A stretch of 64,000 nucleotides of DNA. Origin: Pseudomonas sp. N40(2020) (lineage in GTDB: Bacteria; Pseudomonadota; Gammaproteobacteria; Pseudomonadales; Pseudomonadaceae). A model generated the notes under the pieces. That model was given only the letters and a program-made list of their open reading frames with translations. It did not search any database and was not told the DNA's origin. The translations under genes and the position numbers were made by a program. Shown piece by piece: positions 3,593 to 6,188 of this stretch; position 1 is the first letter of the stretch, and each line of letters begins with the position of its first letter. The DNA is taken from the NCBI RefSeq assembly GCF_014472415.1, contig NZ_JACSZV010000030.1, forward strand, positions 1 to 64,000, written 5' to 3'.

Positions 3593-3743
3593 CCGGGTTT
3601 TCTCTGTTGCTGATCCATTTGCCGCTTCGATGCCATCTCTTTGATGGCGCGTGCTCTTTGGCTCAGATACATGCGGACACGAAATAATTCACCGCTAACT
3701 GCTTTTTTCCCTGCCGGAACTGCCGGAACTGCCGAAAAAAACA

Positions 3744-3780
3744 AAACCCGCCGTCCCGATTGAACGGGGCGACGGGTTTT
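3744..3780 (-). terminator. Rho-independent terminator, DUF6124 copy 1
   Basis: AACCCGCCGTCCC pairs imperfectly with GGGGCGACGGGTT. Read leftward the hairpin is followed by TTTTGTTTTTTT, a strong terminator tail for the DUF6124 gene at 3933-4292. T runs on both sides make it bidirectional. Confidence 0.85.
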
Positions 3781-3816
3781 TTTCATGTCTGAATACAGGT
3801 GGTGACTGTGACGCCG

Positions 3817-3884
3817 CCTTCGCGAGCAGGCTCGCTCCCACCGTTGACCGCGCTCCAATGTGGGAGCGAGCCTGCTCGCGAAGG
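3817..3884. repeat. REPIN (REP pair), copy 1
   Basis: Two perfectly inverted 24-bp REP arms (3817-3840 and 3861-3884; core GCGAGCAGGCTCGCTCCC) flank a 20-bp loop at 3841-3860. This is the canonical fluorescens-group REPIN. The loop is the exact reverse complement of the loop in the second copy at 4753-4772. Confidence 0.9.
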
Positions 3885-3932
3885 GGCCGGAGTTGACACC
3901 GAAAAGCTCAGCCCCTGTTCACCGCATCGAGG

Positions 3933-4292
3933 TCAGCCCGGCAACTCCAGATTATCCAGCACCCGATTTACCGCCAGTTCCCCTAGCATGATCAGTTGCG
4001 CAATGCCCTGCAGCGTCCTGCGCTGCGATGCGGGTACGAGATGGGCAAAGTCATTGGCGATGGTTCTTGCCGAAGCCAGAGTTCCGCAGGCATCGGCCAG
4101 CAACTCCTCGTTTTTGAAGTCCGCGGTCACGGCGTACATCCTGCGGGTTTTACGTGGAGGCGGCGTTGACCCCGGAGGGCAGAGGTAGTGATCGAGTGCG
4201 CGGTCTGCGGCTTCGTTGAGCTTTTTCGAATCGAGGGATTCGTAGGGGGAGGTGGGATCGGTTTCGGGCGGGTTAGGTGTTGGTTTGATCAT
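3933..4292 (-). CDS. DUF6124 family protein, copy 1
   Basis: A 119-residue protein beginning MIKPTPNPPETDPTSPYESL, the hallmark of the Pseudomonas DUF6124 family; function unknown. A proline-rich N-terminus is followed by SKKLNEAADRALDHYL, a basic PPRKTRR stretch near residue 47 and a helical C-terminal half rich in Ala/Leu. No signal peptide or membrane segment, so cytoplasmic. It is identical residue for residue to the copy at 4845-5204. The Shine-Dalgarno (AGAGG) lies inside a palindromic CTCTAGAG segment that can pair with the upstream leader, so translation is probably controlled by RNA structure. Confidence 0.85.
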   Translation of the reverse strand: MIKPTPNPPETDPTSPYESLDSKKLNEAADRALDHYLCPPGSTPPPRKTRRMYAVTADFKNEELLADACGTLASARTIANDFAHLVPASQRRTLQGIAQLIMLGELAVNRVLDNLELPG

Positions 4293-4607
4293 GGGTAAAG
4301 CCTCTAGAGTAGTGAAGCTGCCACCGTTCGCTGCTAACGAAGGAGGTGGCGGCTGTACGCGGGTTAGCAGACCAGGACTCTAGAACCCGGCGCACCGAAG
4401 TGCCCCACGCAAAGCCGCCATAACGGCAACGGACTTTGTGCGTCTAGAGAAAACCCGGGCTGCTAAACCCGATCACTGAGAAATCAGCGACGGCTCAACA
4501 ATAGGCCCCACCCCCAAGGCGCACAAGCCGGCGGATTCTGGCGTAGCTGTAGGCAATTACGCAAGGTTGTGTAGCCTCGGACGCGTGTCTGAAGGTGTCT
4601 TTTAAAC
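4293..4607 (-). ncRNA. Structured 5' leader of DUF6124 copy 1, three-strand switch
   Basis: Read leftward, strand A (CTGCTAAACCC at 4460-4470 and TCTAGAGA at 4443-4450, plus-strand letters), strand B (ACTCTAGA at 4377-4384 and GGGTTAGCAG at 4361-4370) and strand C (CTGCTAAC at 4331-4338 and CTCTAGAG at 4302-4309, covering the ribosome-binding site). B is complementary to both A and C, so pairings A:B and B:C exclude each other. A stable UUCG-capped hairpin (4392-4403) sits between A and B, and a CTGA-TTTC-TCAG hairpin lies further upstream. Copy 2 carries compensatory changes in the variable segments. No metabolite-riboswitch class is recognised. Confidence 0.7.
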
Positions 4608-4619
4608 GTCGCTGTTTAA

Positions 4620-4637
4620 GGCTGCGATCTTTTGATC
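4620..4637. repeat. Half copy of the GATCTTTTGATC palindromic repeat
   Basis: GGCTGCGATCTTTTGATC matches the right arm of the complete palindrome at 5531-5606. It lies between the two duplicated units, so one arm was lost here or gained there. Confidence 0.6.
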
Positions 4638-4655
4638 TCGCCTTGCGAAAACAAC

Positions 4656-4696
4656 AAAACCCGCCGTCCCGATTTAACTGGGCGGCGGGTTTTTTT
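4656..4696 (-). terminator. Rho-independent terminator, DUF6124 copy 2
   Basis: Second copy of the AACCCGCCG...CGGCGGGTT hairpin with T-rich flanks, downstream of the gene at 4845-5204. The stem differs from copy 1 by changes that keep pairing. Confidence 0.85.
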
Positions 4697-4728
4697 CATG
4701 TCTGAAGACAGGCGGGACTGTGTGGTCG

Positions 4729-4796
4729 CCTTCGCGACCAGGCTCGCTCCCACATTGGAGCGCGGTCAACGGTGGGAGCGAGCCTGCTCGCGAAGG
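4729..4796. repeat. REPIN (REP pair), copy 2, loop inverted
   Basis: Arms 4729-4752 and 4773-4796 match those of copy 1 with one mismatch in the left arm (GACCAGG for GAGCAGG). The 20-bp loop 4753-4772 is the exact reverse complement of the loop at 3841-3860. Confidence 0.9.
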
Positions 4797-4844
4797 GGCC
4801 GGAGTTGACACCGAAAAGCTCAGCCCCTGTTCACCACATCGAGG

Positions 4845-5204
4845 TCAGCCCGGCAACTCCAGATTATCCAGCACCCGATTCACCGCCAGCTCTCCCAACA
4901 TGATCAGTTGCGCAATGCCCTGCAACGTCCTGCGCTGCGACGCGGGTACGAGATGAGCGAAGTCATTGGCGATGGTTCTTGCCGAAGCCAGAGTTCCGCA
5001 GGCATCGGCCAGCAATTCCTCGTTTTTGAAGTCCGCGGTCACGGCGTACATCCTGCGGGTTTTACGTGGAGGCGGCGTGGATCCAGGTGGGCAGAGATAG
5101 TGATCGAGGGCGCGGTCTGCGGCTTCGTTGAGCTTTTTCGAATCGAGGGATTCGTAGGGGGAAGTGGGGTCGGTTTCGGGCGGGTTAGGTGTTGGTTTGA
5201 TCAT
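4845..5204 (-). CDS. DUF6124 family protein, copy 2
   Basis: A 119-residue protein identical to the product of 3933-4292, with a few silent base differences. Function unknown. Its Shine-Dalgarno (AAGGAG) is better than that of copy 1 and lies in the CTCAAGGAG segment, the C strand of its leader. Identical proteins behind leaders with different pairing sequences suggest that regulation, not protein function, has diverged. Confidence 0.85.
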   Translation of the reverse strand: MIKPTPNPPETDPTSPYESLDSKKLNEAADRALDHYLCPPGSTPPPRKTRRMYAVTADFKNEELLADACGTLASARTIANDFAHLVPASQRRTLQGIAQLIMLGELAVNRVLDNLELPG

Positions 5205-5519
5205 GGTGAAGCTCCTTGAGAAAAATGGAGCCGTCAGCTATCGCTGCTAAACGAAGAGGTGGCGGCTGTACGCGGGTTAGCAGACCAGGCTCAAGGATCC
5301 CGGCGCACCGAAGTGCCCCACGCAAAGCCGCCATAACGTAGCGGAACCTGCGTGCCTTGAGAATTGCCGGGCTGCTAAACCCGATCACTGAGAAATCAGC
5401 GACGGCTCAACAATAGGCCCCACCCCCAAGGCGCACAAGCCGGCGGATTCTGGCGTAGCTGTAGGCAATTACGCAAGGTCGTGTAGCCTCGGACGCGTGT
5501 CTGAAGGTGTCTTTTAAAC
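5205..5519 (-). ncRNA. Structured 5' leader of DUF6124 copy 2, three-strand switch
   Basis: Same architecture as 4293-4607 with different pairing letters. Strand A is CTGCTAAACCC at 5372-5382 with CCTTGAG at 5355-5361. Strand B is CTCAAGG at 5290-5296 with GGGTTAG/CAG at 5274-5283. Strand C is CTGCTAAAC at 5244-5252 with CCTTGAG at 5214-5220 (plus-strand letters). B pairs perfectly over 7 bp with either A or C. The UUCG hairpin is at 5305-5316. The hairpin between A and the UUCG stem (ACGCA.../...TGCGT) also differs from copy 1 while staying paired. The region 5373-5519 is almost base-for-base the same as in copy 1. Confidence 0.7.
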
Positions 5520-5530
5520 GCGGCTGTTTA

Positions 5531-5606
5531 GATCAAAAGATCGCAGCCTTCGGCAGCTCCTACATAGGCCGGTGTAGGAGCTGCCGAAGGCTGCGATCTT
5601 TTGATC
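5531..5606. repeat. Complete 34-bp inverted repeat (GATCAAAAGATCGCAGC family)
   Basis: Perfect 34-bp arms (5531-5564 and 5573-5606) around an 8-bp loop. This is a second Pseudomonas intergenic repeat class, distinct from the GCTCGCTCCC REPIN. It lies just past the stop of the membrane-protein gene at 5625 and could also act as its terminator. Confidence 0.85.
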
Positions 5607-5624
5607 TGTCTTCTGAAACAACGC

Positions 5625-6188
5625 CTAATTCGTCAGCGAAACGACGATGTCCAGCGCACAGATCGGCAGGTAAATCAGGGTAATGGTCGTATAAGTCTCG
5701 CGTGATTTCGCCGCGAAGGCGCAGAGCGGAAGAATGATCATCAACACATCCAACACCCCCCACAGCGCAATCGGTGAGGCTTGAAACAGAAAGACATTGA
5801 CGATCAGCCCGAGCAACAGATAAGTCGACAACGAGAGCAGGGCGTAGCGACCATCCTGCTCGAAATAGACCCGCAGGCCGTTCTGCTCATCCTCACTGCG
5901 GCTCGGCAGCAACAGCGCCGACGAGACAAACAACGACAGCGCCAATACCACCAGTAACAAAAACTCCGCGAACGAAAATGTCGACTTGATCTGCGGCAGC
6001 GAATTGACCGCCCACCAAAAGTCCAGTTGGGTGGCGAACAACGTAATGGCCCAGACCAACGCCACCCAATCCGGCGCGGCCGCCCGGCGGATGCGGAATA
6101 CCGTCAACGCGCCAAGCAGCAGCCGAGTGACGGACAGCCCCAGAATCATCGAGAGCACCGTTGCAACGATAGGGAAGTTGCTCATCAT
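5625..6188 (-). CDS. Hypothetical integral membrane protein
   Basis: A 187-residue protein with about five or six hydrophobic segments: near residues 5-27, 40-60, 72-95, 117-137, 140-160 and 165-184. A short charged loop (PSRSEDEQNGLRVYFEQDGR) lies in the middle. No recognised catalytic or transport motif, so function is unknown. Both neighbours are on the same strand, but a gap of about 60 bases separates it from the lipoprotein gene upstream. Composition matches the rest of the chromosome. Confidence 0.65.
   Translation of the reverse strand: MMSNFPIVATVLSMILGLSVTRLLLGALTVFRIRRAAAPDWVALVWAITLFATQLDFWWAVNSLPQIKSTFSFAEFLLLVVLALSLFVSSALLLPSRSEDEQNGLRVYFEQDGRYALLSLSTYLLLGLIVNVFLFQASPIALWGVLDVLMIILPLCAFAAKSRETYTTITLIYLPICALDIVVSLTN

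Follow-up and report, generated by a model that had tools for sequence, protein, structure and literature searches.

The closest described relatives of the leaders analysed here are found in phages. In P1 and P7, as far as the accessible text of PMC5320573 goes, C4 is an RNA of about 77 nt that is excised by RNase P, and the two phages are told apart by only a few differing letters; the accessible part of a second source (PMC12197685) lists C4 as acting in trans. The P1 record sets out its elements in the order a1, b1, C4 (77 nt), a2, b2 and the start of icd, with a1 and b1 marked "putative," and the target of C4 there is an antirepressor. The class reaches further than these two phages: the accessible part of Weinberg 2010 (PMC2864571) lists both elements for phages and, among bacteria, c4 for Proteobacteria and c4-a1b1 for gamma-Proteobacteria, and according to the accessible part of PMC5320573, which describes numerous C4-like RNAs of Acinetobacter, Weinberg also predicted C4 in Pseudomonadales. 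The Group 1 sRNAs of Acinetobacter baumannii resemble the RNAs reported below in that there are many per genome and their specificity segments vary; they differ in that the accessible text leaves their targets open (PMC5320573), whereas here a1/b1 and a2/b2 stand in the RNA's own leader, ahead of a named protein family. Weak matches over both of our leaders also come from IsrK (RF01394), of Salmonella prophage Gifsy-1, which the accessible part of PMC12197685 lists as a prophage RNA; at 23.0 and 23.2 bits, these reach less than half the cut-off of 50, and we rejected IsrK as the identity of the leaders.

Our subject is a pair of leaders, each in front of a short DUF6124 gene, in a window by which we mean the whole stretch of 64,000 nucleotides of DNA that was analysed. 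A sequence-only reading of them had proposed a three-strand RNA switch belonging to no named family. The observation was a good one, and the RNA class was already known: both halves of the arrangement are in Rfam (RF01695 and RF03163), and phage P1 is arranged in the same way. When the whole window is searched against Rfam, only two matches rise above the curated cut-offs, and they are exactly these two leaders, which score 68.3 bits (copy 1) and 68.9 bits (copy 2) as C4 antisense RNA (RF01695; cut-off 45). A permissive Rfam search of 3900-5700 listed 18 matches. The c4-a1b1 family (RF03163), entitled "a1, b1 targets of C4 antisense RNA," scores 46.3 bits (E 4e-10) in copy 1 and 44.2 bits (E 2e-9) in copy 2, both just below its cut-off of 46.7, and in both copies the upstream segments are complementary to a′/b′. 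With the same models, P1 itself scores 68.8 bits (C4) and 51.0 bits (c4-a1b1).

All elements and genes lie on the minus strand, and we name the segments as in P1. Copy 1 opens with a −35-like hexamer, TTGTGC (4521-4526), and a −10-like hexamer, TATTGT (4498-4503), both taken from a pattern over 43 aligned leaders. There follow the c4-a1b1 element (4452-4504), made of hairpins, one of which holds the a1 target TTAGCAG (4460-4466; seven pairs with a′), and the b1 target CTCTAGA (4443-4449; seven pairs with b′). The C4 RNA occupies 4342-4425; its b′ segment, in the loop of the third hairpin (4377-4384), makes eight pairs with b2 and seven with b1, and its a′ segment, CTGCTAAC (4363-4370), makes eight with a2 and seven with a1. 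Downstream come the a2 target GTTAGCAG (4331-4338), which pairs with a′, the b2 target ACTCTAGA (4303-4310), which makes eight pairs with b′ and overlaps the Shine-Dalgarno-like AGAGG, and the DUF6124 gene (3933-4292; 119 aa; PF19619, 59.8 bits).

Copy 2 repeats the order: the hexamers TTGTGC (5433-5438) and TATTGT (5410-5415), from the same aligned-leader pattern; the c4-a1b1 element (5364-5416); a1, TTAGCAG (5372-5378; seven pairs with a′); b1, CTCAAGG (5355-5361; seven pairs with b′); C4 (5255-5338), with b′ TCCTTGAG (5290-5297; eight pairs with b2, seven with b1) and a′ CTGCTAA (5277-5283; seven pairs with a1 and seven with a2); a2, TTAGCAG (5244-5250; seven pairs with a′); b2, CTCAAGGA (5213-5220; eight pairs with b′), overlapping the Shine-Dalgarno sequence; and the second DUF6124 gene (4845-5204; 119 aa; PF19619, 59.8 bits). 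In both copies, then, a′ and b′ find matches of seven to eight pairs each at a2/b2 near the ribosome-binding site, and the predicted fold has three stems, leaving a′ unpaired and placing b′ in a hairpin loop. The C4 of P1 is likewise matched by seven to eight pairs at all four sites, and the same three stems are predicted for it. By eye, we see GG where the 5′ end of C4 would be expected and CCACC close to its 3′ end, candidate ends for RNase P processing.

Palindromic repeats are present around both units, at 3817-3884, 4729-4796 and 5530-5607; the first two are inverted copies of one another (98.5%), and the third is its own inverse (94.9%). MicroRNA matches at 5526-5611, which we rejected, are far below their cut-offs and sit on a palindromic repeat.

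The likeness to P1/P7 therefore extends over the covariance models, the predicted fold, the order from a1 through b1, C4, a2 and b2 to a start codon, and the 7-8 nt matches. The differences lie in the setting: icd/ant is what is controlled in the phages, whereas here the gene behind the leader belongs to DUF6124 and not to an antirepressor family; and here the leaders stand on a bacterial contig, with no phage genes among the tested neighbours and at least 47 C4 in the genome. That both copies are C4 operons of the P1/P7 kind, with a DUF6124 gene downstream, we hold with high confidence. Against this reading, besides the weaker pairing and covariation results given below, count the c4-a1b1 scores just under the cut-off in both copies and a strict consensus promoter scan of 3600-5700 that found nothing, these hexamers included. 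The looser promoter-like pattern, TTGTGC-17 nt-TAtNNT, precedes a1b1 in the aligned leaders; 44 of the 47 leaders could be anchored and 43 were counted, and among those 43 the −10-like hexamer has its first T in 36, its A in 39 and its last T in 34. From this hexamer to a1 is 31 bases in copy 1, and the same in P1.

Seen against this anatomy, the segments that the sequence-only reading had called A, B and C are a1/b1, the C4 RNA with its a′ and b′, and a2/b2 over the Shine-Dalgarno sequence. The strings it quoted are present: TCTAGAG-type letters at 4443-4450, 4377-4384 and 4302-4309 in copy 1, and CCTTGAG, CTCAAGG and CCTTGAG at 5355-5361, 5290-5296 and 5214-5220 in copy 2. So is the second set, TTAGCAG against CTGCTAA. 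The likeness of the three places in copy 1 comes from TCTAGA being its own reverse complement. That B is complementary to both A and C holds for both segments, with cognate runs of seven to eight Watson-Crick pairs, and b2 does cover the ribosome-binding site in each copy, as had been said of C. The surroundings had been called almost unchanged; the proteins are indeed identical (identity 1.0), but the units, 3733-4618 and 4646-5530, are only 91.6% identical, and their coding regions share 95% of their DNA; the coding comparison used 71 genes of 119 aa, out of 86 found behind 89 leaders. The proposal that copy-specific letters would keep the two from cross-pairing fits the loop segment, whose match falls from 7-8 pairs to 3-4 when the C4 of one window copy is set against the sites of the other, while the a match stays at 7-8; b alone must therefore distinguish them.

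The same reading had proposed that the pairings of B with A and with C covary, and it had put its weight on what we call the b segment. Close relatives of the DUF6124 protein in named Pseudomonas genomes led us to 79 loci, 78 of them with a C4, and to a set of 89 leaders (87 from fetched loci plus the two of the window; 238 matches, 233 with flanks). For column counts we aligned 28 leaders, the two of the window and 26 of 77 listed ones, hand-picked for different letters; four of the 28 are cut short at an earlier ATG, within b2 or ahead of it, which leaves the a columns unaffected, and the counts cover the a segments, the b segments varying in length and register. In this alignment, a1:a′ and a′:a2 each pair in 99.0% of 194 cells, with two-sided changes at six of seven pairs (36 cells) for each helix, whereas controls in which the partner was slid by one to three columns pair in 8.8-49.0% and show at most two pairs changed on both sides; the structure counted was drawn from the window sequence and is thus favoured over its slid versions. 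Two of the seven a pairs hold most of the double changes, three depend on a single sequence each, and on the measure of further pair types, one of five, shuffles do as well as the a helices, 495 and 498 of 500 reaching the values of the two. The a segment (a1, a′ and a2) passes the covariation test; for b, the evidence is the cognate matching described below, in two genomes, and not column covariation.

The b segments are highly variable. Over the 89 leaders, mean entropy is 1.16 bits in b1, 1.13 in b′ and 0.84 in b2, against 0.43 in the rest of C4 and 0.25 in the first 60 coding bases, and the a segments, at 0.38-0.50 bits, are not raised; the spacer between b1 and C4 is just as variable as b (1.42 bits over ten columns).

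Does each C4 fit its own leader better than it fits the others? We took the longest Watson-Crick run between each C4 of the genome and its own and all other leaders (n = 47), with most stem letters omitted and with positional windows set after the result of a looser test; that test, with the stem letters in and a ranking by duplex energy, had separated cognates poorly, placing them first in 6, 2, 2 and 12 of 47. Mean cognate and non-cognate runs are 6.81 against 4.11 for b′:b2, 6.26 against 4.19 for b′:b1, 7.04 against 3.81 for a′:a2 and 7.09 against 4.57 for a′:a1, and runs of at least six occur, in the same order, in 33/47 (non-cognate 7.3%), 32/47 (8.1%), 44/47 (10.0%) and 44/47 (13.0%). 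In none of the four comparisons did any of 5000 shuffles of these 47 leaders reach the cognate mean. Runs of at least six at a2 and b2 together are found in 32 of the 47 cognate pairs against 11 of 2162 non-cognate ones, and a ranking by summed score puts the cognate leader first in 42 of 47 cases when ties are counted and in 37 outright. At least two of the 47, the damaged-looking copies C52:13939 and C24:38237, have no good match at the sites. A second Pseudomonas genome, with the same windows and 29 distinct leaders (from 30 loci out of 36 matches, 35 of the 36 over cut-off), gives runs of at least six in 25/29 for b′:b2, 20/29 for b′:b1 and 29/29 for both a′:a2 and a′:a1, with non-cognate rates of 8.9-12.9%. 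Among 20 leaders with different b′ strings, representatives of the 89 taken one per string, such runs number 14, 13, 20 and 20 for b′:b2, b′:b1, a′:a2 and a′:a1 (non-cognate 11.3, 11.6, 29.7 and 27.4%), and four control segment pairs in the same 20 leaders give 0, 0, 1 and 0.

Counted over the 47 C4 RNAs, distinct strings number 46 for b′ and 33 for a′, and within the letters compared no two of the RNAs agree in both; the second genome has one pair with identical letters, both in one locus. Letters are shared in 1 of 100 pairs within a genome against 308 of 3555 between genomes, where overlapping loci may repeat one physical copy, and such low sharing would also follow if the letter classes are old orthologous loci, so that it is no proof of selection. 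Flanks are common to 78 of 206 pairs of same-letter loci against 516 of 2793 different-letter pairs, though flanks may include neighbouring copies. The coding regions of the window are 95.0% identical to each other against 87.7% to the best same-letter copy elsewhere. General gene conversion was considered and rejected: over 57 loci, the count is 28 versus 28, with 1 tie. One damaged C4, L067 (C52:13939-14023), has no matching upstream sites and only a fragment of DUF6124 behind it; its b′ letters and a′ core are those of locus C52:110694, on which it could act in trans, if transcribed.

The alternative that fares best is the one in which a single RNA chooses in cis, perhaps driven by a signal, whether to form A:B, with the gene on, or B:C, with the gene off, as an attenuator or riboswitch would. 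Both pairings are conserved, and they covary for the a segment. Moreover, A is present in most leaders (runs of at least six in 44/47 for a′:a1 and 32/47 for b′:b1), so that a1/b1 probably does something, and since even the P1 record marks the upstream sites as "putative," we keep this rival. We nevertheless consider it unlikely, and what had been seen is better read otherwise than as a riboswitch or attenuator. B is a complete C4 with its own closed predicted fold, and in P1/P7 the accessible accounts make it a free, processed RNA listed as trans-acting. No riboswitch family scores above its gathering threshold in the Rfam search of the window (an undescribed aptamer would escape such a search), and we rejected that identity. 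The one terminator-like hairpin, at 4455-4472, lies over a1 of copy 1, within the putative leader, and the same scan reported none at the matching place in copy 2.

If these are C4 operons, how many are there, and what do they precede? The genome holds at least 47 C4, all over the cut-off, from 150 scored of 1606 first-look candidates. An ATG reading frame of at least 55 aa begins within 110 bases downstream in 45 of the 47, and 38 of the 47 lie within 500 bases ahead of a same-strand DUF6124 match; conversely, only 5 of the genome's 43 DUF6124 matches are not behind such a C4. Other C4 precede DUF3077 proteins (L001, L002) or Bro-N proteins (L004, L029). The latter have matches in phage antirepressor families, which supports the C4 reading, as the C4 of P1 controls an antirepressor; L001 has its match in a phage family whose function is unknown, and none among the phage records searched. 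The Bro-N antirepressor-like protein at L029:941-1453 (C58:12594) starts MFKATPNPPED, like many DUF6124 proteins of the same genome, as if leader and first codons had moved jointly onto another gene. Two small proteins behind C4 in this genome (L066:597-917 and L076:617-916) have no Pfam or PHROGs family.

Within the genus, C4 exceeds its cut-off in 183 of 199 Pseudomonas genomes, this one included, with at least 20 copies in 69 of the 199, all counts per genome being minima; c4-a1b1 is matched in 53 of 59 genus genomes, over its cut-off in 48 of 59, with up to 48 matches per genome, and DUF6124 is matched in 158 of 199. In a sample drawn from the class, C4 is present in 17 of 273 genomes, this one not counted, with 1-6 copies each where at most 15 candidates were scored per genome. 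The RNA class, to repeat, is known; what is new is the setting, with at least 47 C4 in one genome, mostly before DUF6124 genes. In the accessible literature on C4, c4-a1b1 and DUF3077, we found no description of C4 before DUF6124, although the supplement of Weinberg 2010 may show Pseudomonas cases, and a literature search for DUF6124 itself returned nothing.

A setting of this kind invites the thought that these are remnants of prophage immunity, decayed so far that the letters are kept by descent and regulation is lost; C4 is a phage regulator, after all, and the two damaged-looking copies are of the kind that decay would leave. We think this very improbable, since the letters differ between copies and yet remain matched at their sites, which would be hard to maintain without selection. 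Nor is there a phage gene among the seven neighbouring proteins given to Pfam, which comprise an amidase, a transporter, an oxidoreductase, a two-component pair, a DUF3313 protein and one without family (5625-6188). Twelve loci, this one included, hold the gene at 5625-6188 or a relative; seven of them have C4, with the same or other matched letters, and in the other five no C4 was found in the stretch examined. DUF6124 itself occurs in one phage record (DVM-2008), as an edge gene of a prophage sequence with C4 in front, and in no plasmid record. In DVM-2008 (L112:2868-3354), a prtR repressor gene adjoins C4 and DUF6124. DUF6124 has no match in PHROGs or among PADLOC families, its best hit among solved structures has an E of 0.21, and its structure model reaches a mean pLDDT of 63 and a pTM of 0.39. 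Finally, chance or simple duplication of short complementary words can be set aside as negligible, for the palindromic TCTAGA, any three occurrences of which would seem complementary in copy 1, is offset by the non-palindromic letters of copy 2, the cognate excess in two genomes, the control segments without such an excess and the covariation of the a segments.

How, then, might such a C4 operon work? By analogy with P1/P7, the unit would consist of a promoter-like sequence, a1/b1, C4, a2/b2 at the ribosome-binding site and a short DUF6124 gene. The leader would be transcribed and C4 then cut out of it, by RNase P as in P1; acting in trans, its a′ and b′ would bind a2/b2 of the mRNA, cover the Shine-Dalgarno sequence and keep the gene silent. 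Because the copies differ in their b letters, each C4 would control its own gene. A larger reading, which we offer tentatively and regard as possible rather than probable, is that a phage immunity RNA has been turned, throughout the genus, into dozens of largely insulated silencing units per chromosome, in which a1/b1 and a2/b2 would compete for each C4 and give each small gene a private, tunable off-switch. Be that as it may, at least 47 C4 with 46 b′ strings in a single genome make a natural set in which to study how short antisense pairs stay separate, and they open a way to study DUF6124 and DUF3077, two families whose names mark their function as unknown; if C4 works here as it does in P1, the genes of both would be off by default.
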